A program made the position numbers and the translations under genes. This document shows, in pieces, positions 24,536-42,504 of a stretch of DNA of 64,000 nucleotides. Position 1 is the stretch's first letter, and each line of letters begins with the position of its first letter. Source of the stretch: Rivibacter subsaxonicus (GTDB taxonomy: Bacteria; Pseudomonadota; Gammaproteobacteria; Burkholderiales; Burkholderiaceae_C); the NCBI RefSeq assembly GCF_004217215.1, contig NZ_SHKP01000007.1, positions 1 to 64,000 of the forward strand. Direction: 5' to 3'. Under the pieces are notes generated by a model that saw nothing but the letters and a program-made list of their open reading frames with translations, was not told the origin of the DNA and did no database searches.

Positions 24536-24555
24536 GGCGGGAGCTCTCCTGCGGG

Positions 24556-24561
24556 GATAAT
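24556..24561 (+). promoter_or_regulatory. -10 element of the rnpB promoter
   Basis: GATAAT at 24556-24561 matches the sigma-70 -10 consensus at five of six positions and stands 6 nt before the predicted RNA 5' end. No good -35 hexamer is seen at 16-18 bp upstream, where the cysK start codon lies. Confidence 0.6.
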
Positions 24562-24566
24562 CGAGT

Positions 24567-25020: not shown

Positions 25021-25068
25021 TTCTTTCCTGTCCCGCGTGTCACGCGCGGGCGACCTGACACCCTGTTG

Positions 25069-26316
25069 ATGAACCCCGACGCCCACACTCTCTGGCGCGC
25101 CCCGCGCTGGGCCCTGTCGATCCTGCTCGCCTGCCTGGGCATGCTCGGGCCCTTCGCGGTCGACACCTACCTGCCGGCCTTCACCGGTATTGCCACCACC
25201 ATCAACGCGACCCCGCTGCAGATGCAGCAGACGCTGTCGGTGTACCTGATCGGCTTCGCGGTGATGAGCCTGTTCCACGGCGCGCTGTCCGACAGCTTCG
25301 GCCGCCGCCCGGTGGTGCTGTGGGGGGTGGCGGTGTTCACGCTGGCCTCGGTCGGCTGCGCGCTGTCGCAGACCATCGGGCAGCTCGTCTTCTTCCGCCT
25401 GCTGCAGGGCCTGTCGACCGGCGCCGGCATCGTGGTCTCGCGCGCGGTGATCCGCGACATGTTCCCGCCGGCCGATGCGCAGCGCGTGATGTCGCAGGTG
25501 ACGCTGTTCTTCGGCATCGCGCCGGCGATCGCGCCGATCATCGGCGGCTTTCTCTACGTGCACGTGGGCTGGCACTCGATCTTCTGGTTCCTCGCCGTCG
25601 TCGGCGTCGCGCTCTGGATCGCGAACTACCAGCTGTTGCCCGAGACGCTGCACGATGACATGCGCCAGCCCTTCCACCCGAAGCACCTGCTGGCCGGCTA
25701 CTGGCAGCTCGGCTCGAGCGCCAAGTTCATCACCCTGGCGCTGGCCAGCGGCATCCCGTTCAACGGCATGTTCCTCTACGTGCTGTCGGCGCCGGTCTTC
25801 GTCGGCGAGCACCTGGGCTTCGGGCCCTCGCAGTTCTTCTGGTTCTTCTTCAGCACCATCGGCGGCATCATGGCCGGCGCCTGGTGGAGCGGTCGCCTGG
25901 CCGGCAAGCTGCCGCCGCAGCGCCAGATCCGGCGCGGCTTTCGCATCATGATCGCGGTGTCGATCGTCAACGTCGCGGCCAACGCGCTGTTCCCGGTGCA
26001 AGCTTGGTGGGCGCTGCCGCTGATCGCGCTGTTCGCCTTCGGCTGGGCGCTGATGGTGCCGGTCGTCACGCTGATGGTGCTCGACCTCTACCCCGAGCGG
26101 CGCGGCATGTCCTCGTCGATGCAGAGCTTCATCGCCGCCGCCGCCAACGCACTGGTGGCCGGCGCGATCGCACCGGCGGTGATGCACTCGACGCTGGCGC
26201 TGGCAATCGCCTCGGCAGCGATGATGTGCATCGGGCTGGTGGCGTGGGTGTGGGTCAAGCCGCGGATGGGGTTCGGGCCCCAGGTCGGCGCCGCGGAGGC
26301 GGCGATCGCCAAGTGA
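25069..26316 (+). CDS. MFS drug-resistance transporter, Bcr/CflA family
   Basis: 415 residues from ATG 25069; the reading frame stays open further upstream but through rnpB, which cannot be coding. Twelve hydrophobic segments. The family signature around helix 1 (GPFAVDTYLPAF) and the motif A loop GALSDSFGRRPVVLWG are present, along with the helix 4-5 LQGLSTGAGIVVSRAVIRD typical of Bcr/CflA proton antiporters. Likely exports hydrophobic drugs or metabolites across the inner membrane; the substrate cannot be read from sequence. Lies 48 bp after rnpB and converges on the AraC regulator gene with an 18-bp gap. Confidence 0.93.
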   Translation: MNPDAHTLWRAPRWALSILLACLGMLGPFAVDTYLPAFTGIATTINATPLQMQQTLSVYLIGFAVMSLFHGALSDSFGRRPVVLWGVAVFTLASVGCALSQTIGQLVFFRLLQGLSTGAGIVVSRAVIRDMFPPADAQRVMSQVTLFFGIAPAIAPIIGGFLYVHVGWHSIFWFLAVVGVALWIANYQLLPETLHDDMRQPFHPKHLLAGYWQLGSSAKFITLALASGIPFNGMFLYVLSAPVFVGEHLGFGPSQFFWFFFSTIGGIMAGAWWSGRLAGKLPPQRQIRRGFRIMIAVSIVNVAANALFPVQAWWALPLIALFAFGWALMVPVVTLMVLDLYPERRGMSSSMQSFIAAAANALVAGAIAPAVMHSTLALAIASAAMMCIGLVAWVWVKPRMGFGPQVGAAEAAIAK

Positions 26317-26334
26317 CGAGGCGGGCGCCTGCGC

Positions 26335-27405
26335 TCAGATCCTGCGCTCGCGGTAGTGGTTCGGGGATTGGCCGGTCCACTTCTTGAACGCCTTGCGGAA
26401 GCTCGACACGTCGGAATAGCCGCTGCGCTCGGCGATCTCGTCGACAGACAGCTCGGTGCGCTCCAGGAACTCGATGGACAGGCGCTTGCGGATGCCGTCG
26501 ATGATGTCCTGGTAGCTGGTGCCGGCCTCGACCAGGCGCCGGTGCAGCGTGCGCGGGGAGAGATGCAGGCGCTCGGCCATCTGCTCGGCGCGCGGCAGGC
26601 CCCCCACGCTGTTGAGGCAGGCCTCCTTGATGGTCTTCACCAGCGCGGGTTCACCGCCGATGGTCTCGAGCATGCGGCCGCAGAAGCTGGCACAGACGCC
26701 GGCCATGACCGGGTTCGCGTTGGGCAGCGGTAGCGGCAGCAGCGCGGCGTCGAACTCCCACTCCATGACCGGCGCGTCGAACTCCACCGGGCAGCGCAGA
26801 ACCTCCTCGTAGCGCGGCGCATGCGGCGGCGCCGCATACGGCAGCCGCAACCGCCGCGCCTCGAAGGGCCGCTCCAGCGTGCGGCTGATCAGCGCCTGGA
26901 TCGAGCTGAACCAGAACTCGGTCGCCAGCGGCAGCAGGGCGCCGAGTTCGTCGAAACCGTGGCCTTCGAAGATCGCCAGATCGCCCTCGACGCGGAAGCT
27001 CTTCTCGAGCACCGGTCCGGCGAGCCGCACATGCTTGATGCCGAAGCCGATCGCCTCGCCGAAGGTCGCGCTGGTCACGACCGCATAGCCGAAGACGCCG
27101 AAATCCGAGATGCGCTGGCGCTGGCCCGCGAGCAGGCCGATGGCGGGTTCGGGCGTCAGCCGCTGCACGTTGGCGAACAGCGCGATCTTCTGCCGGTGCG
27201 AGATCCGGGCGTCGTGGTCGGCGAGCGAGGCGGGTGCGATGCCGGTGCCGGCGAACAGGCTCTCGGCAGCCACGCCGACGGCGGCCAGCGCGTCGGTCAG
27301 GGCGGTCAGGCCTTGCATGCCGTGCAGCGGCGCGTCGAGGTCGCTGCCATAGCGACCGACGATGCGTGGCGTGGCGGCGATGGCCGGATTCACTTCCTTG
27401 AGCAC
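26335..27405 (-). CDS. AraC-family transcriptional regulator
   Basis: 356 residues from GTG 27405; GTG 27393 and TTG codons near 27420 are alternatives, and no clear ribosome site decides. The C-terminal 100 residues hold the two helix-turn-helix units (AEQMAERLHLSPRTLHRRLVEAG and VDEIAERSGYSDVSSFRKAF) ending in the WTGQSPNHYRE motif. The N-terminal domain (RISHRQKIALFANVQRLTPEPAIGLLAGQ, FGVFGYAVVTS) is of the arabinose-binding-like type found in OruR/ArgR-type regulators. It is transcribed divergently from the eight-gene lipid/PHA operon and is its most likely regulator. A run of nine C (coding strand) lies just upstream of the start. Confidence 0.9.
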   Translation of the reverse strand: MLKEVNPAIAATPRIVGRYGSDLDAPLHGMQGLTALTDALAAVGVAAESLFAGTGIAPASLADHDARISHRQKIALFANVQRLTPEPAIGLLAGQRQRISDFGVFGYAVVTSATFGEAIGFGIKHVRLAGPVLEKSFRVEGDLAIFEGHGFDELGALLPLATEFWFSSIQALISRTLERPFEARRLRLPYAAPPHAPRYEEVLRCPVEFDAPVMEWEFDAALLPLPLPNANPVMAGVCASFCGRMLETIGGEPALVKTIKEACLNSVGGLPRAEQMAERLHLSPRTLHRRLVEAGTSYQDIIDGIRKRLSIEFLERTELSVDEIAERSGYSDVSSFRKAFKKWTGQSPNHYRERRI

Positions 27406-27563
27406 GGAGATCGACAACAGACGGGGGGGGGTGAAAACAGGTTGGCAGGATTTCACCCGAATGTGTCGAAGTTGAACCTTGGCGCGAACCCCATGCCGCC
27501 CTAGATTCGCGGTTGCACCAACGCGGCGCCAAGTCCGCGCAGGCCCTGCACCAGGAGACAAGC
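27406..27563. promoter_or_regulatory. Divergent control region of AraC gene and lipid/PHA operon
   Basis: 158 bp between the two divergent start codons. It contains a G9 homopolymer at 27423-27431 and the purine-rich AGGAG (27553-27557) serving the aldehyde dehydrogenase start. No convincing sigma-70 or sigma-54 promoter could be picked by eye. By position it should hold the operator of the AraC regulator. Confidence 0.5.
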
Positions 27564-29078
27564 ATGAACGACACCACGGACGCGTTGCCTTCGGCAACGG
27601 CCAGCGCCGCGATCGACCGCGTCGCGCGCCTCTTCGCCGCCCAGCAGGCGGCCTTCAACGCGGCGCCGGCACCCAGTGCCGACGAACGCCGCGGCCGGCT
27701 CAAGGCGCTCAAGCGCCAGGTCCAGCGCTACCAGGACCTGCTCGCCGACGCGATGAGCCGCGACTTCGGCTATCGCTCGCCGGCCGAGTCGAAGATGCTC
27801 GACCTGCTCGGCTCGATGCTGGAGATGAACCACGCGATCTCGCATCTGCGGCGCTGGATGAAGCCGAGCCGGCGCTCGACCGAGCTGCTGTTCCTCAGCA
27901 ACAGCGTCAAGGTGCTCTACCAGCCCAAGGGCGTGGTCGGCGTGATCGTGCCGTGGAACTTTCCGATCTACCTGGCGCTGGGCCCGCTGGTCGCGGCGCT
28001 GGCGGCGGGCAACCGCGTGATGATCAAGATGCCCGAGGTCACGCCTGCCACCAACGCGCTGCTCAGGACGATGCTCGGCGAGGTGTTCGCCGAGGACATG
28101 GTGGCGGTGGTCGGCGAGGAGCTGGCCGATCCCAACGTCTTCACCTCGCTGCCCTTCAACCACATCGTCTTCACCGGCTCGCCGGCGGTCGGCAAGATCG
28201 TGATGCGCACCGCCGCGCAGAACCTGACGCCGGTGACGCTCGAGCTCGGCGGCAAGTCGCCGGCGCTGGTGACCCGCAACTATTCCGTCGCCGATGCTGC
28301 CAAGCGCATCACGCACGGCAAGTCGACCAACTGCGGCCAGATCTGCGTCTCGCCCGACTACGCCCTGGTGCCGCGCGAGCACGTCAGCCAGTTCGTCGCC
28401 GGCGTGCGCCAGACCTTCGCGCGCTTCTACGACAACAAGACGGCCGGCAACGCCGACTACACCGCGGTCGTCAACGAGCGCCAGTTCGAGCGCGTGCAGG
28501 CGCTGCTCGACGATGCGCGTGCCAAGGGCGCCAGCGTCGAGGCCTGCGCCCCCGCGCCCACCGGCGACGGCCGCCAGCTGCCGCTGCACATCGTCACCGG
28601 TCTCAAGCCCGACATGCGCGTCGTCAACGAAGAGCTGTTCGGCCCGATCCTGCCGGTCGTGCCCTACGACACGATGGACGAGGCCATCGCCTACATCAAC
28701 GCGCGTCCGCGCCCGCTGGCCCTGTACTGCTTCAGCCACGACGGCGCCGAGCGCGACGACCTGCTGCGCCGCACGCACTCGGGCGGCGTCGCCATCAACG
28801 ACTGGGGCTGGCAGGTCGTGAACCACGACGCGCCCTTCGGCGGCATCGGCAACTCGGGCATGGGCACCTACCACGGCGAGGAAGGCTTTCGCGAGCTCTC
28901 GCATGCCAAGACGGTGTTCAAGCGCCAGCGCTTCTTCCCGATCGACCTGTTCTACCCGCCCTACGGCAACTTCGTGCAGCACCTGGCGCTGAAGTTCTTT
29001 CTCGGCAAGGCCGATCCCAGCCTGGCCGCGCCGGGTGCCAGCCATGCAGCGCGTGCCGCAGTTCCCGCAAAACCATGA
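27564..29078 (+). CDS. Aldehyde dehydrogenase, coniferyl-aldehyde-dehydrogenase type
   Basis: 504 residues from ATG 27564 with AGGAG 6 nt upstream. NAD(P)-dependent ALDH fold: PWNFPIYLALGPL for cofactor binding, FTGSPAVGK, general base Glu227 in LELGGKSP, nucleophile Cys261 in NCGQIC, and the C-terminal NHDAPFGGIGNSGMG. The short class 3-like architecture with a C-terminal membrane-prone tail matches CalB-type enzymes, which oxidise aromatic or long-chain aldehydes. Next to an AlkJ-like alcohol dehydrogenase and an alkylsulfatase, a fatty aldehyde is the likelier substrate (inference). First gene of the operon; the following gene starts 14 nt after its stop or, from an alternative ATG, overlaps it by 4 bp. 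Confidence 0.9.
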   Translation: MNDTTDALPSATASAAIDRVARLFAAQQAAFNAAPAPSADERRGRLKALKRQVQRYQDLLADAMSRDFGYRSPAESKMLDLLGSMLEMNHAISHLRRWMKPSRRSTELLFLSNSVKVLYQPKGVVGVIVPWNFPIYLALGPLVAALAAGNRVMIKMPEVTPATNALLRTMLGEVFAEDMVAVVGEELADPNVFTSLPFNHIVFTGSPAVGKIVMRTAAQNLTPVTLELGGKSPALVTRNYSVADAAKRITHGKSTNCGQICVSPDYALVPREHVSQFVAGVRQTFARFYDNKTAGNADYTAVVNERQFERVQALLDDARAKGASVEACAPAPTGDGRQLPLHIVTGLKPDMRVVNEELFGPILPVVPYDTMDEAIAYINARPRPLALYCFSHDGAERDDLLRRTHSGGVAINDWGWQVVNHDAPFGGIGNSGMGTYHGEEGFRELSHAKTVFKRQRFFPIDLFYPPYGNFVQHLALKFFLGKADPSLAAPGASHAARAAVPAKP

Positions 29079-29092
29079 ACCACGAGACATCC

Positions 29093-30763
29093 ATGAGCTT
29101 TGAAGAATTCGACTATGTCGTGATCGGCGGCGGCTCCGGTGGCTGCGTCGTCGCATCGCGGCTGAGCGAGGATCGCAACGTCTCGGTCTGCCTGCTCGAA
29201 GCCGGCGGCGACGACCGCAGCGTCTTCGTCCAGGCGCCGGCCGGCGTGGTGGCGATGCTGCCGATCCCGTTCAAGAACTGGGCCTTCAAGACCGTGCCGC
29301 AGAAGGGGCTGAACGGGCGCCAGGGCTACCAGCCGCGCGGCAAGGTGCTGGGCGGGTCGAGCTCGACCAACGCCATGCTCTACGTGCGCGGCAACCGTTG
29401 GGACTACGACCACTGGGCTGCGCTCGGCAACCCGGGCTGGTCCTATGAGGACGTGCTGCCCTACTTCAAGCGCGCGGAGAACAACGAGACCCATCGCGCC
29501 GATCCGTTCCACGGCACCGGCGGCCCGCTCAACGTCGCCGAGCTGCGCAGCCCGAGCGCGCTGAACAAGGCCTTCCTGGCCGCCGCCGCGATGAACGGCG
29601 TGCCCAACGTCGCCGACTACAACGGCGCCGAGCAGTTCGGCTCCTTCATGTACCAGGTGACGCAGAAGAACGGCGAGCGTTGCAGCGCGGCCAAGGGCTA
29701 CATCACGCCCCATCTGGCGCGTCCGAACCTCGCGCTGCGGACCAACGCGCTGAGCTCGCGCATCGTGTTCGAGGGCAAGCGTGCGGTCGGCGTCGTCTAC
29801 ACGGTGGGTGGCGTCGAGAAGCAGGTGCGGGCGCGGCGCGAGGTGATCCTCGCGTCCGGCGCCTTCGGTTCGCCGCAGCTGCTGATGCTCTCGGGCATCG
29901 GTCCGGGCGAGCAACTGCAACGCCTGGGTGTCCCGGTGCTGCACGACCTGCCCGGCGTCGGCGAGAACCTGCACGACCACATCGACCATGTGCAGACCTG
30001 GCGTGCCGGCAGCGACTCGCCGACCTTCGGCGTGTCGCTGCGCGGCGGCCTGAAGATGGCGCGCGCGATTCCGGAGTGGAAGCAGCACCGCACCGGCCTG
30101 ATCACCAGCAACTTCGCCGAGTCCGGCGCCTTCCTGCGCTCCTCGCCCGATGTCGCGGTGCCCGATCTGCAGATGGTTTTCGTGGTCGGCGTGGTCGATG
30201 ACCACAGCCGCAAGTTCCACCTCGGCCACGGCTACTCGTGCCACATCGAGGTGCTCCGCCCGCACAGCCGCGGCACGGTCAAGCTGGCCGGACGCGACCC
30301 GCGCGCCGCGCCGCTGATCGACCCCAAGTTCCTCGACGACGAGCGCGACCTCGCGCTGCTGGTCAAGGGCGTGCAGATGCAGATGGACATCCTGAACGCC
30401 AGCCCCTTCGCACCCTGGCGCGGCAAGATGCTCTACCCGGTGGACCGCAACGACACGGCCGCGATCGCGCAGGACATCCGCAACCGCGCCGACACCCAGT
30501 ACCACCCTGTGGGCACCTGCAAGATGGGCGCCGACAGCGACCCGCTGGCGGTGGTCGATGCCCGCCTGCGTGTACGCGGCGTGCAGGGCCTGCGCGTGGT
30601 CGACGCGTCGATCATGCCGCAGCTTTGCAGTGGCAACACCAACGCGCCGACCATCATGATCGGCGAGAAGGCGGTGGACATGATCCGGACCGACCAGCGC
30701 GGCTCGATGCCCGCTTCGCAACTGACATCCTCGAACAATCTTCCGACGGAGACCTTCGCATGA
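29093..30763 (+). CDS. GMC-family alcohol dehydrogenase, AlkJ-like
   Basis: 556 residues from ATG 29093 (GAGACA upstream mirrors the other operon ribosome sites); an ATG at 29075 overlapping the previous stop is possible. FAD-binding VVIGGGSGGCVVASRLS at the N-terminus, the GMC signature PRGKVLGGSSSTNAMLYVRG, and the C-terminal HPVGTCKMG with NTNAPTIMIGEKA. It reads closely like AlkJ of the Pseudomonas alkane pathway (for example NAFKTVPQ-type start region, QVTQKNGER, HDLPGVGENLHDH), an FAD-linked membrane-associated dehydrogenase oxidising medium-chain 1-alkanols with electrons to quinone. Choline dehydrogenase-like activity is an alternative. Its stop overlaps the alkylsulfatase start (ATGA). 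Confidence 0.9.
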   Translation: MSFEEFDYVVIGGGSGGCVVASRLSEDRNVSVCLLEAGGDDRSVFVQAPAGVVAMLPIPFKNWAFKTVPQKGLNGRQGYQPRGKVLGGSSSTNAMLYVRGNRWDYDHWAALGNPGWSYEDVLPYFKRAENNETHRADPFHGTGGPLNVAELRSPSALNKAFLAAAAMNGVPNVADYNGAEQFGSFMYQVTQKNGERCSAAKGYITPHLARPNLALRTNALSSRIVFEGKRAVGVVYTVGGVEKQVRARREVILASGAFGSPQLLMLSGIGPGEQLQRLGVPVLHDLPGVGENLHDHIDHVQTWRAGSDSPTFGVSLRGGLKMARAIPEWKQHRTGLITSNFAESGAFLRSSPDVAVPDLQMVFVVGVVDDHSRKFHLGHGYSCHIEVLRPHSRGTVKLAGRDPRAAPLIDPKFLDDERDLALLVKGVQMQMDILNASPFAPWRGKMLYPVDRNDTAAIAQDIRNRADTQYHPVGTCKMGADSDPLAVVDARLRVRGVQGLRVVDASIMPQLCSGNTNAPTIMIGEKAVDMIRTDQRGSMPASQLTSSNNLPTETFA

Positions 30764-32739
30764 AGTACCCCATCCCCGCCCTCGTTGCCGCGCTCGTCGC
30801 GTCCGCGCTGACCGCCAGCGCCTTCGCGCAGCAGGCGGCCGCTCCGGCCACCGCGCCGAAGCCCGCCACGCCGAGCACGGTGCGCGCCAACCAGGCGGTG
30901 GCACAGAAGCTCGCGCTCGACGACAAGCGCGACTTCGACGACGCCACCCGCGGCCTGATCGCGACGATGCCCGACCCGGTGGTCAAGACGGCCGAGGGCA
31001 AGCTGGTGTGGGATGCCGACCGCTACGACTTCATCAAGGGCGACGCGCCGGCCACGGTCAACCCCAGCCTGTGGCGCCAGGAGAAGCTCAACAACGCGCG
31101 CGGCCTGTTCAAGGTCACCGACGGCATCTACCAGATCCGCGGCTACGACCTCGCCAACATGACGCTGGTCGAGGGCAAGACCGGCTGGATCGTCATCGAC
31201 ACGATGCTGACCGCCGAGATTGCCAAGGCCACCATGGCATTCGCGATGGAGAAGCTCGGCAGCAAAAAGCCGGTGGTCGCGGTGATCTACACCCACAGCC
31301 ACGCCGATCACTACGGCGGCGCGCGCGGCGTGATCAACGAGGCCGACGTGCAGGCCGGCAAGGTCAAGGTCATCGCGCCCGAGGCCTTCATGGAACACGC
31401 GATCGCCGAGAACGTGATGGCGGGCACCGCGATGACGCGCCGGGCCACCTACCAGTTCGGCGCCGGCCTCGACACCAACGAGCGCCAGGGCGTGGGCAGC
31501 GGCCTGGGCAAGGCGCTCAGCAGCGGCACCATGGGCCTGATCCCGCCCACCGACACCGTCAGCAAGACCGGGCAGGAAATGACGGTCGACGGCGTTCGCA
31601 TCGTCTTCCAGATGGCGCAGGGCTCCGAGGCGCCGTCGGAGATGATGTTCTATTTCCCCGAGAAGAAGGCGCTGTGCCTGTCGGAGGTGCTGACCAAGCA
31701 CATGCACAACGTCTACACCATCCGCGGCGCCAAGATGCGCGACGCGCTGGCCTGGAGCAAGTACGCCAACGAGACGATCGACCTGTTCCCCGAGGTCGAG
31801 GTCGCCTTCGCCAGCCATCACTGGCCGACCTGGGGCGGCAACAACATCCGCCAGTACATGGCGAACCAGCGCGACACCTATCGCTTCCTGCACGACCAGG
31901 CGGTCAACCTGGCCAACAAGGGCCAGGTGATGGACGAGATCGGCAACGTCGACTTCTTCCCCAAGGGCCTGGCGACCGATGCCAGCTCGCGCGGCTACTA
32001 CGGCACGCTGAGCCACAACCTGCGCGGCGTCTACAACTTCTACCTCGGCTACTACGACGCCAACCCGGCCAGCCTGCACAAGCTGCCGCCGACCGAGACC
32101 GCCAAGCGCTACGTGGCGGCGATGGGCGGCGAGGCGGCGGTGCTGGCCACCGCGCGCAAGGGCTTCGAGGCGGGCGACTACCGCTGGGTGGCCGAGCTGG
32201 TGAACCACGTGGTCTTCGCCAACCCGGACAACGCCGCGGCGCGCGCGCTGCAGGCCGACACGCTCGAGCAGCTCGGCTACCAGGCCGAGGCCGGCACCTG
32301 GCGCAATGCCTATCTCGTGGGCGCCAAGGAGCTGCGCGACGGCGTGCTGAAGCCGCCGACCCAGACCCAGGGGCCGGACGTGGTGCGCGGCATGAACCAG
32401 GAACTGCTGTTCGACTTCATCGCGATGCGGCTGAACCACGAGAAGGTCGACGGCATGACGGCCAACATCAGCATGGTGTTCACCGACCTCAAGGAAACCT
32501 GGGCGCTCGAACTCTCGAACTCGGTGCTCAACAACACCAAGGGCCGGGTGCTGAAGAACCCCGACGTCACGCTGACGTTGACGCGCCCGGCCTTCTTGGC
32601 GATGCTGTTGCAGGGCAAAAAGCTGCCCGAGCTGGTGCAGGCCGGCATGGTCAAGCTCGAGGGCGACCCGAAAGCCTTCGGCGCGGTGTTCGCCAACGTC
32701 GAGAGCTTCGACCCCTTCTTCAACATCATCACGCCCTGA
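30760..32739 (+). CDS. Periplasmic alkylsulfatase, metallo-beta-lactamase fold (SdsA1-like)
   Basis: 659 residues. Signal peptide MKYPIPALVAALVASALTASAFA, so the enzyme is exported. Metallo-beta-lactamase motif Thr178-His-Ser-His-Ala-Asp-His184 followed by YGG; other metal ligands lie in LSEVLTKHMHN and SHHWPTW. A helical dimerisation domain follows (TAKRYVAAMGGEAAVLATARKG ... LGYQAEAGTWRN), then a C-terminal SCP2-like lipid-binding domain (FTDLKETWALELSNSVLN ... FDPFFNIITP). This three-part layout is that of SdsA1 of P. aeruginosa and yeast BDS1, which hydrolyse primary alkyl sulfates such as dodecyl sulfate to alcohol and sulfate. Start overlaps the GMC stop. Confidence 0.92.
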   Translation: MKYPIPALVAALVASALTASAFAQQAAAPATAPKPATPSTVRANQAVAQKLALDDKRDFDDATRGLIATMPDPVVKTAEGKLVWDADRYDFIKGDAPATVNPSLWRQEKLNNARGLFKVTDGIYQIRGYDLANMTLVEGKTGWIVIDTMLTAEIAKATMAFAMEKLGSKKPVVAVIYTHSHADHYGGARGVINEADVQAGKVKVIAPEAFMEHAIAENVMAGTAMTRRATYQFGAGLDTNERQGVGSGLGKALSSGTMGLIPPTDTVSKTGQEMTVDGVRIVFQMAQGSEAPSEMMFYFPEKKALCLSEVLTKHMHNVYTIRGAKMRDALAWSKYANETIDLFPEVEVAFASHHWPTWGGNNIRQYMANQRDTYRFLHDQAVNLANKGQVMDEIGNVDFFPKGLATDASSRGYYGTLSHNLRGVYNFYLGYYDANPASLHKLPPTETAKRYVAAMGGEAAVLATARKGFEAGDYRWVAELVNHVVFANPDNAAARALQADTLEQLGYQAEAGTWRNAYLVGAKELRDGVLKPPTQTQGPDVVRGMNQELLFDFIAMRLNHEKVDGMTANISMVFTDLKETWALELSNSVLNNTKGRVLKNPDVTLTLTRPAFLAMLLQGKKLPELVQAGMVKLEGDPKAFGAVFANVESFDPFFNIITP

Positions 32740-32784
32740 TCTGAACAGCGCGCGCAGACCTGACGCGCCACGAGGAGACACCCG

Positions 32785-34425
32785 ATGAACCCGCAACCCT
32801 GGCTCGCCACCTACCGCGCCAACGGCATCCCGGCGCAGATCAACCCCGACGCTCACGCCTCGGTCGTGCACATGCTCGAGGCGGCGATGGCGCGCTTTGC
32901 CGACCGCCCGGCGTTCCGCTCCTTCGGCCAGACGCTGAGCTACGCCGACGTCGATCGGCAATCCGCCGCCTTCGCCGCCTGGCTGCAGCACAAGCTCGGC
33001 GTCAAGAAGGGCGATCGCATCGCGGTGATGTCGCCCAACTTCCTGGCCTTTCCGATCGCCTTCCTCGGCATCGCGCGGGCCGGAGCGGTGCAGGTCAACG
33101 TCAATCCGCTCTACACGCCGCGTGAGCTCGAGCACCAGCTCAACGACTCGGGTAGCGAGATCATCGTCATCTTCAGCGGCTCGACGCCGACGCTGGCCGA
33201 GGCCATCGGCAAGACGCGCGTCAAGACCGTGATCACCGTCACCCCCGGCGACGGCAGCGGCGTCGTGCTGCCGTCGCCGCCGGTCGATGCGCGGCTGGTC
33301 GGCGCCGTCGCCTTCGCCGACGCGCTGGTCGAGGGTGCGAAGCTCAAGCGCACGCCGGTCGAGCTGAGCGGCGACGACCCGCTGTTCCTGCAGTACACCG
33401 GCGGCACCACCGGGCTGTCCAAGGGCGCGTGCCTCTCGCACCGCAACCTGGTCGCCAACACCGAGCAGTTCAAGGCCGTGATGCCCGCTTCGCTGCGGCC
33501 CGGCGAGGAGGTGATCGTCACCGCGATCCCCCTGTATCACATCTTCGCGCTGATGGTGAATTTCATCACCTACTTCTCGGTCGGCGCCGACAACTGGCTG
33601 GTCGCCAATCCGCGCGACATGGACGGCTTCGTCGACATCATGAAGAAGGCCAGGCCCAGCGTCTTCATGGGCGTCAACACGCTCTACGCCGGGCTGACGA
33701 TGCACCCGAAGCTGGCCGAGGTCGACTGGTCTCGACTGCGCCTGTCGGGTGGCGGTGGCGCGGCCGTGGTCGGCGCCACCTCGGCCAAGTGGAAGTCCAT
33801 CACCGGCAACTTCATCCGCGAGGGCTACGGCCTGTCGGAGACCAGCCCGGTGCTGTCCTTCAACCCGGCCAGCATCCAGGAATTCAGCGGCACCACCGGC
33901 CTGCCGATGCCCGGCACCGACATCAAGCTCATCGGAGACGACGGCAAAGAGGTCGCGCTCGGCGAGTCCGGCGAGGTCTGCGCCAAGGGCCCGCAGGTGA
34001 TGAGCGGCTACTGGAACCAGCCCGCGGCAAATGCCGCGGCCTTCACCGCCGACGGCTACTTCCGCACCGGCGACGTCGGCCTGTTCACCCCCGAGGGCTT
34101 CCTGAAGATCGTCGATCGCAAGAAGGACATGGTGATCGTCTCGGGCTTCAACGTCTTCCCCAACGAGATCGAGGCGGTCGCCAGCGCCTGCCCGGGGGTG
34201 GCCGAATGCGCCTGCGTCGGCGTGGCCGACGAGAAGACCGGCGAGGCGGTGAAGCTCTTCGTCGTCCGGGCGCCGGGCGCGACGCTGAGCGAGGACGAAC
34301 TGATCGCGTTCTGCCGCAAGGAGATGACGGCCTACAAGGTGCCCAAGCTCGTGCGCTTCGTCGATGCCTTGCCCAAGTCGACGGTCGGCAAGATCCTGCG
34401 CCGCGAGCTGCGCGACGTGGCCTGA
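32785..34425 (+). CDS. Long-chain fatty acid-CoA ligase
   Basis: 546 residues from ATG 32785 with GAGGAGA 6 nt upstream. Adenylate-forming enzyme: P-loop YTGGTTGLSKGA near 204-215, GYGLSETSPV, the hinge region TGDVGLFTPEGFLKIVDRKKDMVIVSGFNVFPNEIE (written here in its parts TGDVG, IVDRKKDM, GFNVFPNEIE), and the catalytic lysine near the end in LPKSTVGKILRREL. Resembles FadD. Activates free fatty acids to acyl-CoA with ATP. In this operon it accepts the product of the aldehyde dehydrogenase and feeds the acyl-CoA dehydrogenase/MaoC/PhaC steps. Confidence 0.93.
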   Translation: MNPQPWLATYRANGIPAQINPDAHASVVHMLEAAMARFADRPAFRSFGQTLSYADVDRQSAAFAAWLQHKLGVKKGDRIAVMSPNFLAFPIAFLGIARAGAVQVNVNPLYTPRELEHQLNDSGSEIIVIFSGSTPTLAEAIGKTRVKTVITVTPGDGSGVVLPSPPVDARLVGAVAFADALVEGAKLKRTPVELSGDDPLFLQYTGGTTGLSKGACLSHRNLVANTEQFKAVMPASLRPGEEVIVTAIPLYHIFALMVNFITYFSVGADNWLVANPRDMDGFVDIMKKARPSVFMGVNTLYAGLTMHPKLAEVDWSRLRLSGGGGAAVVGATSAKWKSITGNFIREGYGLSETSPVLSFNPASIQEFSGTTGLPMPGTDIKLIGDDGKEVALGESGEVCAKGPQVMSGYWNQPAANAAAFTADGYFRTGDVGLFTPEGFLKIVDRKKDMVIVSGFNVFPNEIEAVASACPGVAECACVGVADEKTGEAVKLFVVRAPGATLSEDELIAFCRKEMTAYKVPKLVRFVDALPKSTVGKILRRELRDVA

Positions 34426-34441
34426 ACCGAAGAGGCCTCCG

Positions 34442-34921
34442 ATGAACGCAGCAGCAGCAACAGCACTCACGGTCGCCACGCTGTCCGACTGGATCGGCAA
34501 GGAGATCGGGACCTCGCACTGGGTCGACGTCGACCAGCAGCGCATCAACGAGTTCGCGCACTGCACCGGCGACCACCAGTGGATCCACGTCGACGTGGAG
34601 CGGGCCAGGAAGGAAAGCCCCTTCGGAGGCCCGGTGGCGCATGGCTACCTGACGCTGGCGCTGCTGGCCGAGATGGCCATGGACATCGGCGTGGTGCCCA
34701 AAGACGCCGTGGCGGCCTTCAACTACGGCCTCGACAAGGTGCGCTTCCTGGCGCCGGTCAAGGCCGGCGCGCGGGTGCGCGCACGGGTCACGCTGGCCGA
34801 GGTGACGGATCAGGGTCAGGGGCGCAAGCTGGTCAAGCTGATCAACACCGTCGAGATCGAGGGCGAGGCCAAGCCCGCCCTCGTGGCCGAGACGCTGGCC
34901 ATGCTGGTCGGCCCGGCCTGA
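34442..34921 (+). CDS. MaoC-family (R)-specific enoyl-CoA hydratase
   Basis: 159 residues from ATG 34442 with GAAGAGG upstream. Hotdog hydratase motif with Asp44 and His49 in TGDHQWIHVD, then SPFGGPVAHGYLTLAL, the conserved segment after the catalytic pair. MaoC/PhaJ enzymes hydrate trans-2-enoyl-CoA to (R)-3-hydroxyacyl-CoA, the monomer used by PHA synthase encoded immediately downstream. The exact motif is closer to the NodN-like MaoC branch than to Aeromonas PhaJ, so stereospecificity is inferred from family and context. Its last 10 bases, including the stop, belong to the 383-bp tandem duplication that begins at 34912. Confidence 0.88.
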   Translation: MNAAAATALTVATLSDWIGKEIGTSHWVDVDQQRINEFAHCTGDHQWIHVDVERARKESPFGGPVAHGYLTLALLAEMAMDIGVVPKDAVAAFNYGLDKVRFLAPVKAGARVRARVTLAEVTDQGQGRKLVKLINTVEIEGEAKPALVAETLAMLVGPA

Positions 34922-35686
34922 GCCTCAAGCATGGAGTGAACGCCATGGTCAGGAAAACGGAGACGCCGGCCAGGCAGGCCAAGCCGGCCGCACGCAAGCG
35001 CGCCGCCGCTGCGGCCCCCACCCCCGCGCGGCGCAAGAAGGCCGCGCCGCGCGCTGCGGCGGCAGCGAACGATCGGATCGGTGAAGCCGCGGCGCGCAAC
35101 ACGCTCGCGGTGAACCCGCTGATCGGCATCCGTGCCAGCGACTTCGGCGAGGCGGCGCAGGCCCTGATCGGCGCGGCGGTGACGCAACCGGTGCAGGCCG
35201 CGCGCCACCTGGGCGCCTACGCCAGGAAGCTCGGCGCGGCGGCGCTCGGCAACACCGCGCACGAGCTCGACCCGCGCGACCGGCGCTTCGCCGACCCGGC
35301 CTGAGCCTCAAGCATGGAGTGAACGCCATGGTCAGGAAAACGGAGACGCCGGCCAGGCAGGCCAAGCCGGCCGCACGCAAGCGCGCCGCCGCTGCGGCCC
35401 CCACCCCCGCGCGGCGCAAGAAGGCCGCGCCGCGCGCTGCGGCGGCAGCGAACGATCGGATCGGTGAAGCCGCGGCGCGCAACACGCTCGCGGTGAACCC
35501 GCTGATCGGCATCCGTGCCAGCGACTTCGGCGAGGCGGCGCAGGCCCTGATCGGCGCGGCGGTGACGCAACCGGTGCAGGCCGCGCGCCACCTGGGCGCC
35601 TACGCCAGGAAGCTCGGCGCGGCGGCGCTCGGCAACACCGCGCACGAGCTCGACCCGCGCGACCGGCGCTTCGCCGACCCGGCCTG
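34912..35686 (+). repeat. Perfect 383-bp tandem duplication
   Basis: Bases 34912-35303 recur without a visible difference at 35295-35686: 392 bp matched at a period of 383 bp, the two copies sharing the 9-bp junction CCCGGCCTG (35295-35303). In the parent sequence one CCCGGCCTG ended the MaoC gene (Pro-Ala-stop) and the other lay in phaC (Pro-Ala-Trp). Joining the second to the first explains the structure exactly. The unit carries the MaoC stop, the phaC ribosome site and the first 119 phaC codons. Confidence 0.95.
34945..35304 (+). pseudogene. phaC': Duplicated 5' fragment of phaC
   Basis: 119 residues identical to residues 1-119 of the intact PhaC, from ATG 34945 with the same GGAGTG upstream. 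It ends at the TGA carried in from the duplicated MaoC end. It lacks the whole catalytic domain. It should still be transcribed and translated, giving a basic Lys/Arg/Ala/Pro-rich peptide plus the start of the N-terminal domain. It is a by-product of the tandem duplication rather than an independent gene. Confidence 0.9.
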
Positions 35687-37121
35687 GCAGAGCAGCCCGC
35701 TGCTCAAGCGCCTGCTGCAGGCCCACGCGACGACTGCGCAGGAACTGACCCGCTACATCGACGCCACCTCGCTGAACGCGCGCGACAAGGCGCGCGCGCA
35801 TCTGGTGGCGTCGATCTTCGTCGACACCATCTCGCCCAGCAACACGCTGCTCAACCCGAGCGCGCTCAAGCGCGCGGTCGATACCGGCGGCGCCAGCCTG
35901 CTCGAGGGCGTCAAGAACCTGACGCACGACCTGCGCCACAACAAGGGGCTGCCCTCGTCGGTCGACAAGTCGGCCTTCGAGGTCGGCCGCAACGTGGCCA
36001 CGACGCCCGGCAGCGTGGTGTTCCGCAACGAGGTGCTGGAGCTGATCCAGTACCAGCCGGCCACCGCGCAGGTCTACGCGCGGCCGCTGGTGATCTGCCC
36101 GCCGCAGGTCAACAAGTTCTACGCGATGGACCTGACGCCGGACAAGAGCCTGATCCGCTTTGCGCTGAGCCAGGGCCTGCAGGTCTTCGCGATCAGCTGG
36201 TTCAACCCGACCAAGGACCAGCGCGGCTGGAACATGTCGACCTACGTGCAGGCGCTCGACGAGGCGGTCGACGCGGCGCGCCAGATCACGCGCAGCCCGG
36301 ACGTCAACCTCTGGGGCGCCTGCTCCGGCGGCATGACGGCGGCGGCCTACCTGGGTTGGCTGGCCGCGACCGGGCAGCCCAAGGTCGCCAGCGTGATCTC
36401 GCCGGTGTGCGTGCTCGACCCGTCCCGGACCATGGACACGACCATGGGGCTGCTGGCCAGCGAGAAGGGCCTGAAGACCCTGAAGGCCGCGATCAAGCGC
36501 AAGGGTGTGGTCGACGGCTCCGAGCTGGCGCGCGTCTTCGCCTGGCTGCGGCCGAACGACCTGATCTGGAACTACTGGGTCAACAACTACCTGCTGGGCA
36601 ACAAGCCGCCGGCCTTCGACATCCTGTTCTGGAATGCCGACACGACCCGCTTGCCGGCCGCCTTCCATGCCGACCTGATCGGCGTCTTCGAGAACAACCC
36701 CTTCGTCAACGCCGGCCGGATGGAGGTGCTGGGCCTGCCGCTCGACCTGAGCCAGGTCGAGGTCGAGGCCTACATCGTCGCCGGCACCACCGACCACATC
36801 ACGCCCTGGCGTGCCTGCTACGAGACCGCGCGCCTCTACGGCAAGAAGAGCGAGTTCGTGCTGGCCAACGCCGGCCACTTGCAGAGCCTGCTGAACCCGC
36901 CCGGGACCGCGAAGTCCTTCTTCCTTTCCGGCGTGGCCGGCAGCCACGACCCCGATGCCTGGGCCGCCAAGGCCGAGCGCAGCGAGGGCAGCTGGTGGCC
37001 GCACTGGATGGCCTGGATGCAGCAGCGCTCGGGCACACTGGGGTCCGCGCCGAAGAAGCCGGGCAGCCGCAAGCATCCGGCTGCGCTGCCGGCACCGGGC
37101 GAGTACGTGATGGCAGGCTGA
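35328..37121 (+). CDS. phaC: Class II (medium-chain-length) PHA synthase
   Basis: 597 residues from ATG 35328 (GGAGTG upstream). Catalytic triad: Cys332 in the lipase-like box GACSGG, Asp489 in AGTTDHITPW, His517 in NAGHLQSLLNPPG. Segments such as NKFYAMDLTPDKSLIRF, RPNDLIWNYWVNNYLLGNKPP and FDILFWNADTTRLP read like Pseudomonas class II PhaC1/PhaC2, which polymerise C6-C14 (R)-3-hydroxyacyl-CoAs, rather than class I PhaC of Cupriavidus. The first 45 residues form an Ala/Lys/Arg/Pro-rich tail (RKRAAAAAPTPARRKKAAPR) like histone H1-type tails, absent from typical synthases of this class as I recall them. Sits 5' of a matching depolymerase, as in Pseudomonas pha loci. Confidence 0.93.
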   Translation: MVRKTETPARQAKPAARKRAAAAAPTPARRKKAAPRAAAAANDRIGEAAARNTLAVNPLIGIRASDFGEAAQALIGAAVTQPVQAARHLGAYARKLGAAALGNTAHELDPRDRRFADPAWQSSPLLKRLLQAHATTAQELTRYIDATSLNARDKARAHLVASIFVDTISPSNTLLNPSALKRAVDTGGASLLEGVKNLTHDLRHNKGLPSSVDKSAFEVGRNVATTPGSVVFRNEVLELIQYQPATAQVYARPLVICPPQVNKFYAMDLTPDKSLIRFALSQGLQVFAISWFNPTKDQRGWNMSTYVQALDEAVDAARQITRSPDVNLWGACSGGMTAAAYLGWLAATGQPKVASVISPVCVLDPSRTMDTTMGLLASEKGLKTLKAAIKRKGVVDGSELARVFAWLRPNDLIWNYWVNNYLLGNKPPAFDILFWNADTTRLPAAFHADLIGVFENNPFVNAGRMEVLGLPLDLSQVEVEAYIVAGTTDHITPWRACYETARLYGKKSEFVLANAGHLQSLLNPPGTAKSFFLSGVAGSHDPDAWAAKAERSEGSWWPHWMAWMQQRSGTLGSAPKKPGSRKHPAALPAPGEYVMAG

Positions 37122-37130
37122 AGGAGGCCG

Positions 37131-38054
37131 ATGAGCAGCGCCAAGGCAGCAGTACAGGGCAAGAAGGCGCCGGTCGACCGGTTGCAGGAGTTGCGGGTCG
37201 ATCCAGCCTCGGGGCTGCGGATCGGCACGATCCGGATCGGCCGCCAGCAACTGCGGGTCGGCATCCGGCCGCTGCCGGACGGCATGGAGGCCGCAGGCCC
37301 GCCGCTGCTGATGTTCAACGGCATCGGCGCCAATCTCGAACTGGCCGGTCCGCTGCTGTCCAGGCTTGGCGCGGTCGAGGCCCTGATCTTCGACCTGCCG
37401 GGTGCCGGCCAGTCGCCGCCGCCGCGCCTGCCGTACCGCCTGTTCTCGATGGCGCGGCTGGCCTGCCGGCTGCTCGACGCGCTCGGCTACGAAGGCCGGG
37501 TCGACGTTATGGGCGTGTCCTGGGGTGGGGCGCTGGCGCAGCAGTTCGCGATCCAGTACCCGCAGCGGCTGCGCCGCCTGGTGCTGGCCGCCACCGCGAT
37601 CGGCCCGCCGGCGATGATCCCGGGGCGGCCGCGGGTGCTGCTGAAGATGGTCAACCCGCAGCGCTACCGCGACAAGGGCTACATGAAGCGCATCGCGCCC
37701 GAGCTCTACGGCGGCGATCTGCGCAGCCGGCCCGAGGCGATCAAGCTCTTCACCGACCACGCGCGTGCCGGCCACCCGACCGGCTACAGGTACCAGATGC
37801 TGGCGATGCTGGGCTGGACCAGCCTGCCGTGGCTGTGGCGCATTCGCCATCCGACGCTGGTGCTGGCCGGCAACGACGATCCGCTGGTGCCGCTGATCAA
37901 CGCCCGCCTGCACGCCTGGCTGCTGCACGATGCGCGCCTGCACGTGCTTGACGACGGCCACCTGTTCCTGCTGACCCGGGCCCAGCAGACCGCAGACCTC
38001 ATCAGCGGCTTCCTGGCCGAGCCGCAGCGCCCCCGGGCGAGGACCGCAGCATGA
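37131..38054 (+). CDS. phaZ: Intracellular medium-chain PHA depolymerase
   Basis: 307 residues. Alpha/beta hydrolase with nucleophile Ser130 in GVSWGG, acid at Asp249/250 in AGNDDPLVPL and His in DDGHLFLLTR. The stretches LLMFNGIGANLELAGPLL and GVSWGGALAQQFAIQYPQRL are very close to PhaZ of Pseudomonas putida, the granule-bound enzyme that releases 3-hydroxyalkanoic acids from stored mcl-PHA. A short basic N-terminal extension precedes the core. Starts 9 nt after phaC (AAGGAGG upstream) and its stop overlaps the acyl-CoA dehydrogenase start. Confidence 0.92.
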   Translation: MSSAKAAVQGKKAPVDRLQELRVDPASGLRIGTIRIGRQQLRVGIRPLPDGMEAAGPPLLMFNGIGANLELAGPLLSRLGAVEALIFDLPGAGQSPPPRLPYRLFSMARLACRLLDALGYEGRVDVMGVSWGGALAQQFAIQYPQRLRRLVLAATAIGPPAMIPGRPRVLLKMVNPQRYRDKGYMKRIAPELYGGDLRSRPEAIKLFTDHARAGHPTGYRYQMLAMLGWTSLPWLWRIRHPTLVLAGNDDPLVPLINARLHAWLLHDARLHVLDDGHLFLLTRAQQTADLISGFLAEPQRPRARTAA

Positions 38055-39193
38055 TGAAGATCGAAAGAACGCTCTTTTCCGAGGAGCACCGGCAGTTCCG
38101 CGACACCGTGCGCCGCTTCATGGAGCAGGACGTGGTGCCGCACCACGAGGCCTGGGAGGAGCAGGGCTACGTGGATCGCGCGGTCTGGCTGAAGGCCGGC
38201 GAGAACGGCTTCCTGTGCCCGACGATGCCGGAAGAGGTCGGCGGTGCCGGCGTCGACCGGCTGTTCAGCGTGGTGCTCTTCGAGGAGCAGTTCCGCGTCA
38301 ACGCCACCGGCCTCGGCTTCGGCCTGCACTCCGAGATCGTCGCACCCTACCTGCTGCACTACGGCAGCGAGGATCTCAAGCAGCGCTACCTGCCGCGCAT
38401 GGCCAGCGGCGAGATGATCGGCGCGATCGCGATGTCGGAGCCGGCGGCCGGCTCCGACCTGCAGGGGGTGCGCGCCACCGCGGTGCGGCACGGCGACCAC
38501 TACCTGCTCAACGGCTCGAAGACCTTCATCACCAACGGCTGGTTGTGCGACCTGGTGATCGTCGTCGCCAAGACCGACCCGGCGCTCGGCGCCAAGGGCA
38601 TCAGCCTGTTCGTCGTCGACACCACGATGCCCGGCTTCAGCAAGGGCAAGCGATTGAAGAAGGTCGGCATGAAGGCGCAGGACACCTCGGAGCTGTTCTT
38701 CGACAACGTCAGGGTGCCGGTCGAGAACCTGCTTGGCGCCGAGGGCTCGGGCTTCGCCAGCCTGATGCAGGAGCTGCCGTGGGAGCGTATGCAGATCGCG
38801 ATCACCTCGATGGCCTCGGCCGAGGCAGCGCTCGAATGGACGCTGGCCTACACGCGCGAGCGCAAGGCCTTCGGCCAGGAGGTCTTCAAGTTCCAGAACA
38901 CCCGCTTCACGCTGGCCGAGTTGGCGACCGAGGTCCAGATCGGCCGGGTGTTCGTCGATCGCTGCATCGAGCTGGTGCTGAAGAACCAGCTCGACACCGC
39001 CACCGCCTCGATGGCCAAGAGCTGGTGCACCGACCTGCAGTTCAAGGTGCTCGACGCCTGCGTGCAACTGCACGGCGGCTACGGCTACATGTGGGAGTAC
39101 CCGATCGCCCGCGCCTGGGCCGACGCGCGCGTGCAGCGCATCTACGGCGGCACCAACGAGATCATGAAGGAAGTGATCTCGCGCTCGCTCTGA
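38051..39193 (+). CDS. Acyl-CoA dehydrogenase, long-chain/isovaleryl type
   Basis: 380 residues from ATG 38051, overlapping phaZ as ATGATGA. FAD and substrate motifs IAMSEPAAGSDLQG and FITNG, then RKAFGQ and the C-terminal LHGGYGYMWEYPIAR and IYGGTNEIMKE. In short/medium-chain enzymes the catalytic Glu precedes Gly-Thr-Asn/Ser near the end; here that position is Gly (YGGTNE). Instead Glu245 in LPWERM occupies the place used by long-chain and isovaleryl enzymes (LPQERL-like). It should oxidise acyl-CoA to trans-2-enoyl-CoA for the MaoC hydratase. Last gene of the operon; electron transfer flavoprotein genes are not in the window. Confidence 0.92.
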   Translation: MMKIERTLFSEEHRQFRDTVRRFMEQDVVPHHEAWEEQGYVDRAVWLKAGENGFLCPTMPEEVGGAGVDRLFSVVLFEEQFRVNATGLGFGLHSEIVAPYLLHYGSEDLKQRYLPRMASGEMIGAIAMSEPAAGSDLQGVRATAVRHGDHYLLNGSKTFITNGWLCDLVIVVAKTDPALGAKGISLFVVDTTMPGFSKGKRLKKVGMKAQDTSELFFDNVRVPVENLLGAEGSGFASLMQELPWERMQIAITSMASAEAALEWTLAYTRERKAFGQEVFKFQNTRFTLAELATEVQIGRVFVDRCIELVLKNQLDTATASMAKSWCTDLQFKVLDACVQLHGGYGYMWEYPIARAWADARVQRIYGGTNEIMKEVISRSL

Positions 39194-39206
39194 GGCTCGC
39201 CCGGCG

Positions 39207-39228
39207 GACTCACCCCGACGGGGGAGTC
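39207..39228 (+). terminator. Possible terminator hairpin after the lipid/PHA operon
   Basis: GACTC plus CCCC pairs with GGGG plus GAGTC around a GAC loop, with one bulged A. It has no T-tract, so it could be a weak or Rho-assisted end. Position fits the operon end. Confidence 0.4.
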
Positions 39229-39286
39229 GTCGTCGCCGGCCCACAGTGCGCGCGTCGCGCGCGGCGTGAGCACCTAGCATCGGGCG

Positions 39287-40651
39287 ATGGATCGATCGTC
39301 CGCTTCGCGTCGCGGCCCCTGGGTTGGCGCCGGCGCGCTGGTGCTGTCGCTGCTGGCCGTGGCCTGGCTGGCGGCCGATGGCTTGGGCGAAGTCGGTGCC
39401 ACGCCGGTCGTGGCGGCGACGCCCGCACCGGCCCCACCGATCACGGCAATGCCGGCCGAGCGGACCGTGCGGCCGCCGCGGGCAAGCGCCGTCGATGCCG
39501 CGCCCTCGGCCGCCGGCGCTCGATCTCACAGGCTGCAGGTCTGCGACGCCACTGCCGTTGTCATCGAAGCCGACGGCGCGCCGCCGGCCGTGATGTAGCA
39601 GGCCACCGAGGACGCGATCGGCAAGGTGGCGGCGCATCTGGCTGCTCGCGGCGACGACCGCTCGCGGGCCTACGCGGCCTTGCTGGCCTCGGTCTACGAC
39701 CCGGATGCGGAGCGGCGCTTCGCCGAACTCCTGGAGCGGTGCAAGAGCAAGCCCGGACAGCCTTGCAATCTGCACGACATGGCACCGGGCGACGAGAGCC
39801 GGCGGGTGGTCGCCCGCGAGACGCTGGCCCGGCTGGCCGTGACCACGAGCGATCCCGAGGTTTATGCCCGCGCCTGGCAGGCCTGCCTGCCGATCACCGA
39901 ACGAAGGCCGCGCGCCGAGGCGTCGGGTGGCGCCGGCAGCCAGTGCACGCAGCTGTCGCTGCAGCGCTGGGCGGCGCTGGACGCCGGCAATGCGGTGCCG
40001 TGGCTGCATGTGCTGGCGCAGCCGGGGCTGACGCCGGCGCAGATGGCAGAGGTGCTGCATCAGATCGCGCAGTCGCAGCGCGTCGAACACAGCTGGGGTC
40101 GGTTGCCCGCGGCGGTGGTCGAGGCCGAGGGCAGCGGCGTGCCGCGTGGCTGGCTGATGAACGCGGCCTTGGCGGCGCTCGGCATCGATGCCCAGATGAC
40201 GCCGCCATACTCCTCACTGAAGAAGCAGTGCGATACCGCAGCAGTCACCGACGCGAACCGCCGCCAGACCTGCGAGGCGATTGCCGATCTGTTGGGCTTT
40301 CGCTCGAACGCCTTGCTTGACCAATCGATCGGTCAAGCCATCGGTCGCAAGATCGGCTGGCCGGCCGACAAGCAGCGCCAGCTCGACGATGAGCGGGATG
40401 CAATGCTGGCCGTGTCCATCTCGCCTCAGATCGACGGGCAGCCGCTGAGCTGTGCGTCCTACGACAGGATGCGCCGCTACTGGAGCACGGCCGCGAAGGA
40501 CGGCGAGCTCGGCCTCGTGCGCGCCGCGCTGGCGGCCAGCGGCGAACCACTGGGCGTGCTGGCCGAACGTGGCCGCCGCGAGCAGCGCGAGTTCTCGGAG
40601 CGGATTCGCGCCGCCGCCGCGCCGGCCTCGGCCGCCAGCGCCGCGCGCTGA
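39287..40651 (+). pseudogene. Hypothetical exported protein gene interrupted by in-frame TAG
   Basis: One continuous frame of 455 codons (ATG 39287 to TGA 40651) is broken only by TAG at 39596-39598. Before it lies a signal anchor (LVLSLLAVAWLAADGLG) and a Pro/Ala-rich linker, ending VIEADGAPPAVM. After it come QATEDAIGKVAAHLAARGDD and a helical domain of about 340 residues with several cysteines. A CAG to TAG change would restore Gln-Gln. A GTG at 39626 could restart translation but has no ribosome site and would lose the signal. I do not recognise the family. It converges with the Lrp-type gene (7-bp gap). Confidence 0.75.
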
Positions 40652-41228: not shown

Positions 41229-41375
41229 GCGATCGAACCGGTGGTTTGCGACAAATCGTCAGAGATCGTAGTCGATCTGTCGTCCAAAGCTGTATTTCTG
41301 TCGCAGATGACACGCTGTTTCGACAGCAGCCGCTTCTAGACTCGTCTCGATCGATTCACCTCTCGGAGACAGCTC
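41229..41375. promoter_or_regulatory. Divergent lrp-like/lysine operon control region
   Basis: 147 bp between divergent starts, visibly more AT-rich than its surroundings. It holds a perfect inverted repeat GCTGT-TTCG-ACAGC (41314-41327) and related CTGTCG/CGACAG elements at 41298-41303 and 41321-41326, candidate operator half-sites for the Lrp-type regulator. GGAGACAG precedes the dehydrogenase start. Confidence 0.5.
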
Positions 41376-42470: not shown

Positions 42471-42504
42471 ACGGACAATCGCTGACCGGACGCAAGGAAC
42501 GACG

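Follow-up and report, generated by a model that had tools for sequence, protein, structure and literature searches.

A predicted slf-type alkyl-sulfate module joined to a class II-like polyhydroxyalkanoate gene block in Rivibacter subsaxonicus

We analysed a 64,000-nucleotide stretch of the Rivibacter subsaxonicus genome (RefSeq assembly GCF_004217215.1, contig NZ_SHKP01000007.1, positions 1 to 64,000; hereafter the window) and identified a run of eight genes at 27564–39193 that joins predicted enzymes of alkyl sulfate breakdown to predicted enzymes of polyhydroxyalkanoate (PHA) storage. The genes encode an aldehyde dehydrogenase (ALDH), a GMC alcohol dehydrogenase, an alkylsulfatase, an acyl-CoA ligase, a MaoC-type hydratase, a PHA synthase (PhaC), a PHA depolymerase (PhaZ) and an acyl-CoA dehydrogenase (ACAD). 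All are open and intact on the plus strand and face a divergent AraC-family gene on the minus strand. Reading frames, Pfam and NCBIfam bear out the eight families and the divergent regulator named in the initial annotation. Considering gene content, gene order, catalytic motifs, the relatives of each half and the rarity of their join, we regard the locus as probably an slf-type alkyl-sulfate operon joined to a class II PHA block, with the block's ligase filling the last slf place. Both modules are known separately, and the novelty is confined to their fusion.

The regulator (26335–27405, minus strand; Pfam Arabinose_bd and HTH_18) has an uncertain start, for which the GTG at 27405 was taken. 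ALDH (27564–29078; Pfam Aldedh) occupies the slfC position and the GMC dehydrogenase (29075–30763; GMC_oxred N and C domains), of the choline-dehydrogenase-like subfamily, the slfH position. These are followed by the alkylsulfatase (30760–32739), a long/medium-chain acyl-CoA ligase (32785–34425; AMP-binding), the MaoC-type hydratase (34442–34921; Pfam MaoC), PhaC (35319–37121, starting at GTG 35319 or ATG 35328), PhaZ (37131–38054) and ACAD (38051–39193; Pfam Acyl-CoA_dh). Neighbouring genes overlap by 4 bp at three junctions (ALDH/GMC, GMC/alkylsulfatase and PhaZ/ACAD), and the remaining spacings are 45 bp (alkylsulfatase to ligase), 16 bp (ligase to MaoC), 397 bp (MaoC to PhaC) and 9 bp (PhaC to PhaZ). 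Each gene scores above at least one Pfam cut-off, and the Pfam and NCBIfam results match the assigned names. The ligase has no match to a narrow AMP-loop pattern, and the other catalytic motifs sought are all present. The Pfam scores and catalytic motifs rule out a chance run of reading frames.

The order and orientation of the front half (AraC facing ALDH-GMC-alkylsulfatase-ligase) are those of slfR facing slfC-slfH-slfS-slfL on plasmid pP62BP1 (L246). By BLASTP, the alkylsulfatase is 46% identical to SlfS and ALDH is 37% identical to SlfC. The slf genes are described as an operon that is repressed by SlfR and induced by lauryl aldehyde, not by sodium dodecyl sulfate (SDS) or dodecanol (PMC3346939, PMC10779009), and the slf module is reported to confer SDS decomposition on Escherichia coli (PMC10779009).

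Closer relatives of the front half are found in four Variovorax loci (L018–L021), in which the facing AraC gene and ALDH-GMC-alkylsulfatase are together 72–87% identical to their window counterparts, the AraC gene, in the same place, being 72–75% identical. Neither the ligase nor the PHA genes of the window have a match in the flanks of these loci. Alignment with the Variovorax loci also reveals a shared block, starting TTGGCAGRTTTTCACCCGAATGTGTCGAA, in the gap between AraC and ALDH; in the window it forms an operator/promoter-like element at 27442–27484 on the plus strand (TTGGCAGGATTTCACCCGAATGTGTCGAAGTTGAACCTTGGCG). The first 29 bases of the block have a single site in the R. subsaxonicus genome when up to 3 mismatches are allowed, and a reversed-pattern control gave 0. 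The ALDH-GMC-alkylsulfatase order recurs in L025 and L026, in L194 (56–68% identity, with a facing AraC gene at 56%) and in C. metallidurans CH34 (49–54%).

Individual front-half genes also have relatives on plasmids. Acinetobacter sp. KCTC 92772, a strain from spoiled shower gel, carries a plasmid that encodes an ALDH with 66% identity to that of the window (L247, 11920–13342, in two tblastn pieces), near insertion sequence (IS) elements and with no match to the window's alkylsulfatase in that stretch. On the IncP-1gamma plasmid QKH54 (L202, 6059–10608), hcfRABC combines a taurine-dioxygenase-type gene, a hydratase and a GMC gene (hcfC) 70% identical to that of the window, and the stretch read has no match to the window's alkylsulfatase. 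Some dioxygenases of the taurine-dioxygenase family cleave alkyl sulfates, and hcf may be a dioxygenase-based counterpart of the front half. A reading of the locus as a polyethylene-glycol operon was considered and set aside.

The alkylsulfatase contains Lactamase_B (PF00753), Alkyl_sulf_dimr (PF14863) and SCP2-like Alkyl_sulf_C (PF14864) domains, all above their Pfam cut-offs. It keeps every zinc residue of the published type III motif, THxHxDHxGG...E x18 E x44 H (PMC3346939), as THSHADHYGG, E, x18, E, x44, H. Domains and zinc motif place it among type III (SdsA1-type) enzymes, and hydrolysis of alkyl sulfates is predicted. Judged by eye, its N-terminus is signal-peptide-like, in agreement with the signal peptide read at the outset. 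A separate alkylsulfatase with 73% identity lies on a metagenome-assembled contig labelled Actinomycetota (L022, 3784–5769), reflecting either transfer or a mislabelled bin.

The substrate is harder to assign. The six matches to solved structures are PSdsA, a lactamase-type-domain protein, YjcS, two sec-alkylsulfatase sequences and SdsA1 (2cfu); since SdsA1, YjcS and sec-alkylsulfatases are mixed among them, sequence leaves the substrate unfixed. The physiological substrate of SlfS and SdsA1 has itself been left open (PMC3346939). These observations give some weight to a possibility that we nonetheless doubt, namely that the true substrate is a fatty alcohol from alkanes or wax esters, or a secondary alkyl, alkyl ether or glycolipid sulfate, with the sulfatase acting as a side entry. 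The complete zinc motif weighs against that possibility, as does the recurrence of adjacent sulfatase, GMC and ALDH genes in Variovorax, C. metallidurans and others.

The back half encodes a PHA block. The best solved relative of the MaoC protein is Rv0130 (E 1e-38), and the protein contains, as GDHQWIH, the Asp-x4-His arrangement that we take to be the hydratase 2 dyad. PhaC contains a PhaC_N domain and a GACSG catalytic box. Its assignment to class II, made in the initial annotation, holds in part: the class II model TIGR01839 is the best match, at 725 bits against a cut-off of 855 (464 bits against 623 for the class I model), and in a PhaC tree the 16 class II-side rows, among them the window and P. 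mandelii (annotated as class II), separate with 100/100 support from 6 others, three of which we labelled class I. We call the synthase class II-like. PhaZ, with the motif GVSWG, is the sole protein in its genome above the cut-off of TIGR02240 (PHA_depoly_arom).

The ligase belongs with this block. A family genome, G012, encodes ligase-PhaC-PhaZ at 81, 71 and 71% identity to the window, and the 19 kb read there contain no sulfatase. The window and G012 are sisters in both the PhaC tree (100/100) and the ligase tree (100/99), in which a Bradyrhizobium row formed a meaningless long branch and was ignored. Identification of the window's ligase with slfL was dropped, given its sister relationship to the G012 PHA-block ligase.

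The medium-chain polymer first proposed was weighed against the PhaC sequence and a tested relative. At position 484 (P. putida GPo1 numbering; the fifth residue after the catalytic-type His numbered 479), a site tied to specificity (PMC4636328), the residue is Leu in 5 of the 16 class II-side rows, namely those of the window, G012, G122a, Bradyrhizobium and P. mandelii. Ile occupies the site in 9 of the 16, including both copies in the family genome G249 and C. campinensis, and Val in 2. The Leu makes a medium-chain polymer plausible. The term is nevertheless unsafe because the tested synthase of the same cluster type, PhaC2 of C. pinatubonensis JMP134, has Ile at 484, accepts 3-hydroxybutyryl-CoA, not 3-hydroxyoctanoyl-CoA, and makes only short-chain PHA (PMC4636328). 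A short-chain product, which would require the chain to be shortened by beta-oxidation outside the operon, is consistent with this precedent and with a synthase score under the class II cut-off. We consider it unlikely given the Leu shared with P. mandelii in place of the JMP134 Ile, yet that Leu is itself a minority state.

The 397-bp gap between MaoC and PhaC results from an exact 392-bp tandem duplication with a period of 383 (34912–35303 and 35295–35686). Copies of a 9-bp repeat, CCCGGCCTG, lie at its joints and ends, one of them inside the 3' end of maoC. The duplication spans the end of maoC and the start of phaC, leaving a shortened frame of 119 codons (phaC', 34945–35304), while unit 2 continues into phaC and keeps it whole. 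The copies are identical, so the duplication is either a recent event or an assembly error. The small gaps and overlaps first described thus hold for most junctions, which overlap by 4 bp or are 9–45 bp apart; the duplication had been missed. A Pseudomonas-like phaC1-phaZ-phaC2 cluster was considered and rejected, as the window has one intact phaC with a shortened upstream duplicate, and ACAD after phaZ.

Together these genes suggest a route from sulfate ester to storage polymer. The exported sulfatase would free a 1-alkanol outside the cytoplasm, which would enter the cell and be oxidised to a fatty acid by the GMC dehydrogenase and ALDH. The ligase would convert the fatty acid to acyl-CoA, ACAD and MaoC would convert this to (R)-3-hydroxyacyl-CoA, and PhaC would store it as polymer, from which PhaZ would release carbon. 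In principle this predicted enzyme set is complete from ester to (R)-3-hydroxyacyl-CoA polymer, as the initial annotation had it. By analogy with SlfR, the AraC protein may gate the front promoter in response to a fatty aldehyde. We infer the substrate, the inducer and a single transcript from these resemblances, and only tentatively propose the fuller scheme of one regulator-gated sulfate-ester-to-PHA operon, read as one transcript, whose fusion occurred at least two times (in this genus and in G249) with the halves joined at a shared ligase.

Should the joined halves function as a single unit, a common class of anionic surfactants would pass directly into a storage polymer under one regulator. 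The locus would then link detergent breakdown genetically with PHA production, offer a compact set of genes with which surfactant or fatty-alcohol waste could be turned into PHA, and exemplify how catabolic operons may gain a storage branch through a shared ligase gene.

Several observations weigh against such an operon. The GMC dehydrogenase has no BLASTP match to SlfH at E<=1e-5, the ligase is 23% identical to SlfL, and the regulator is 26% identical to SlfR over 70 helix-turn-helix (HTH) residues only; these three proteins are thus not close slf kin, and slf function is assigned to them by analogy only. The eight genes include no phasin or transporter, the truncated phaC' lies upstream of the intact phaC, and a promoter may lie inside the run, ahead of the ligase. 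An SDS-degrading Pseudomonas showed no significant change in sulfatase gene expression on SDS (PMC6107682). The join is also rare. We surveyed alkylsulfatase loci for PhaC, PhaZ or MaoC matches within 8 kb at set thresholds: none of 80 named loci (55 of them flanked by 6 kb or more on each side) has PHA genes in that range, and PhaC, PhaZ and MaoC occur together on the same strand in one of 56 further loci from the family (the window's own excluded; 41 of them with flanks of that length). Given this rarity, conservation gives little support for selection.

Within the same survey, one more of the 56 family loci has a MaoC-like gene on the opposite strand. Matches below threshold were not counted (PhaZ-like hydrolases at 25–29% in the named loci L053, L059, L061, L076 and L089), nor was a 41% MaoC-like match slightly more than 8 kb away in L065. 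The proposed check on gene order came out negative, as conservation is not general: the front half is found elsewhere lacking PHA genes, and the back half lacking a sulfatase. A simple promoter scan of 26200–40200 found no promoter-like site at any position, so the blank between the operon's genes is uninformative. Front-half GMC models that score best in NCBIfam are those of choline dehydrogenase, below cut-off. We rejected a direct origin from the slf operon of Psychrobacter, to which 3 of the 5 components are not closely related; the front half is slf-like in its gene order and in the function predicted for it, but not in ancestry.

The single family locus with all three PHA genes is in G249, a member of another genus. 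There (L183/L193) an AraC gene faces ligase-PhaZ-MaoC-PhaC, a C-terminal ligase remnant, and ALDH-GMC-alkylsulfatase; identities to the window are 46% for the alkylsulfatase, 61% for ALDH and 56% for PhaC, and the G249 GMC protein has no match to that of the window. The remnant is 68–69% identical to sulfatase-linked ligases and 63–66% to PHA-linked ones, with a poorly aligned front, and a test for a mosaic ligase gave no clear switch point. By hand arithmetic (2 alkylsulfatases x 2 clusters x 16 kb / 4.1 Mb), the chance of such a join in G249 is roughly 0.016. G249 carries two alike clusters of AraC facing ligase-PhaZ-MaoC-PhaC, about 21 kb apart (L182, L183).

Approached from the PHA side, 2 of 11 PhaZ-bearing stretches in other family genomes (L128 and L179–L188, of which L180 is only 3.9 kb) have an alkylsulfatase match, namely those of G249 and G070. 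In G070 (L256, 8690–17403) a distant alkylsulfatase-family gene shares its strand with ligase-PhaZ-MaoC-PhaC-ACAD and lies about 5 kb beyond PhaC, with a predicted opposite-strand gene in between. It is 28% identical over residues 114–644, its dimerisation and C-terminal domains score above their Pfam cut-offs and its lactamase domain just below, and it was too distant for inclusion in the family alkylsulfatase sample. It is weak support at most for the join. Across 299 family genomes, 49 have an alkylsulfatase (E<=1e-150) and 9 have PhaZ (E<=1e-50), counts that may be too low, having been made from at most 4 and 7 scored candidates per listed genome, respectively. Five genomes (G000, G012, G070, G220 and G249) have both; the copies lie on separate contigs in G012 and G070, and the nearest pair in G220 is about 400 kb apart. 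An order-wide PhaZ search of 399 genomes picked out one, that of R. subsaxonicus itself, and with at most five candidates scored per listed genome it was too insensitive to count.

A ligase gene is common to both module types and sits at both seams, in the window and in G249, and recombination at this shared gene would be a natural origin for the join. The same process could have left two adjacent transcription units, one an alkyl-sulfate module and the other a general module from fatty acids to PHA, with nothing dedicated to linking them. Such an arrangement would fit the occurrence of each half without the other, the rarity of the join and the G249 ligase remnant between the halves, a trace expected of recombination at a gene common to both. 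We consider it quite unlikely: only 45 bp separate the alkylsulfatase from the ligase, the front half without the block's ligase would end at fatty acid, and a second join exists in another genus.

Past the AraC gene, 23618–26316 encodes, as read from the translations, a cysteine synthase-like protein (minus strand) and an MFS-type transporter (plus strand); a sulfur-assimilation gene adjoining a sulfatase locus may be there by chance. Directly downstream, 40659–45035 contains an Lrp/AsnC regulator (minus strand), a saccharopine dehydrogenase-like protein, an ALDH (42517–44013) and a 2-oxoadipate dioxygenase/decarboxylase (HGLS), and looks like a lysine catabolism run.

No locus joining an alkylsulfatase with PHA genes is described in the titles and opening abstract lines of the open-licence papers that our searches listed, in keeping with the initial annotation, which knew of none; each half, by contrast, has been described separately, as slfRCHSL (PMC3346939, PMC10779009) and as a class II cluster of maoC, fadE, phaC and phaZ (PMC4636328, PMC8231600). 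In the SDS-degrading Pseudomonas, a PHA-related gene was upregulated after SDS in data that the authors call ambiguous (PMC6107682), a weak physiological hint of a link between sulfatase and PHA.

Among known systems, slfRCHSL of Psychrobacter sp. DAB_AL62B (pP62BP1) shares with the window a divergent AraC gene, ALDH, GMC dehydrogenase, exported SdsA1-type sulfatase and ligase. It differs in the subfamilies of its GMC dehydrogenase, ligase and regulator, and in the stretch read it has no PHA genes after slfL. SdsA1 and LaoABC of P. aeruginosa likewise convert SDS to fatty acid, with Lao likened here by description only, whereas the sulfatase genes of that species are described as scattered (PMC10779009, PMC6107682).

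For the back half, the phaC2 cluster of JMP134 comprises fadE, phaJ/maoC, phaC2, phaP and phaZ, is reported to be co-transcribed and to be strongly transcribed on octanoate (PMC4636328). In Burkholderia sensu lato, the phaC clusters of group C include phaZ, phaP and maoC (PMC8231600). As described, these clusters resemble the window in having one class II-type phaC, a MaoC hydratase, PhaZ and, in JMP134, an ACAD. The window differs in having no phasin among its eight genes, a ligase in front and a joined sulfatase operon, and, going by the published description of JMP134, in Leu versus Ile at position 484. A plasmid of Bradyrhizobium sp. CB82 (L208) has the same five-gene order behind a divergent AraC gene, ligase-MaoC-PhaC-PhaZ-ACAD, with PhaC 48% and the ligase only 28% identical to the window. 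Unlike the window, this stretch is without a sulfatase and has ALDH and benzoylformate decarboxylase genes upstream.

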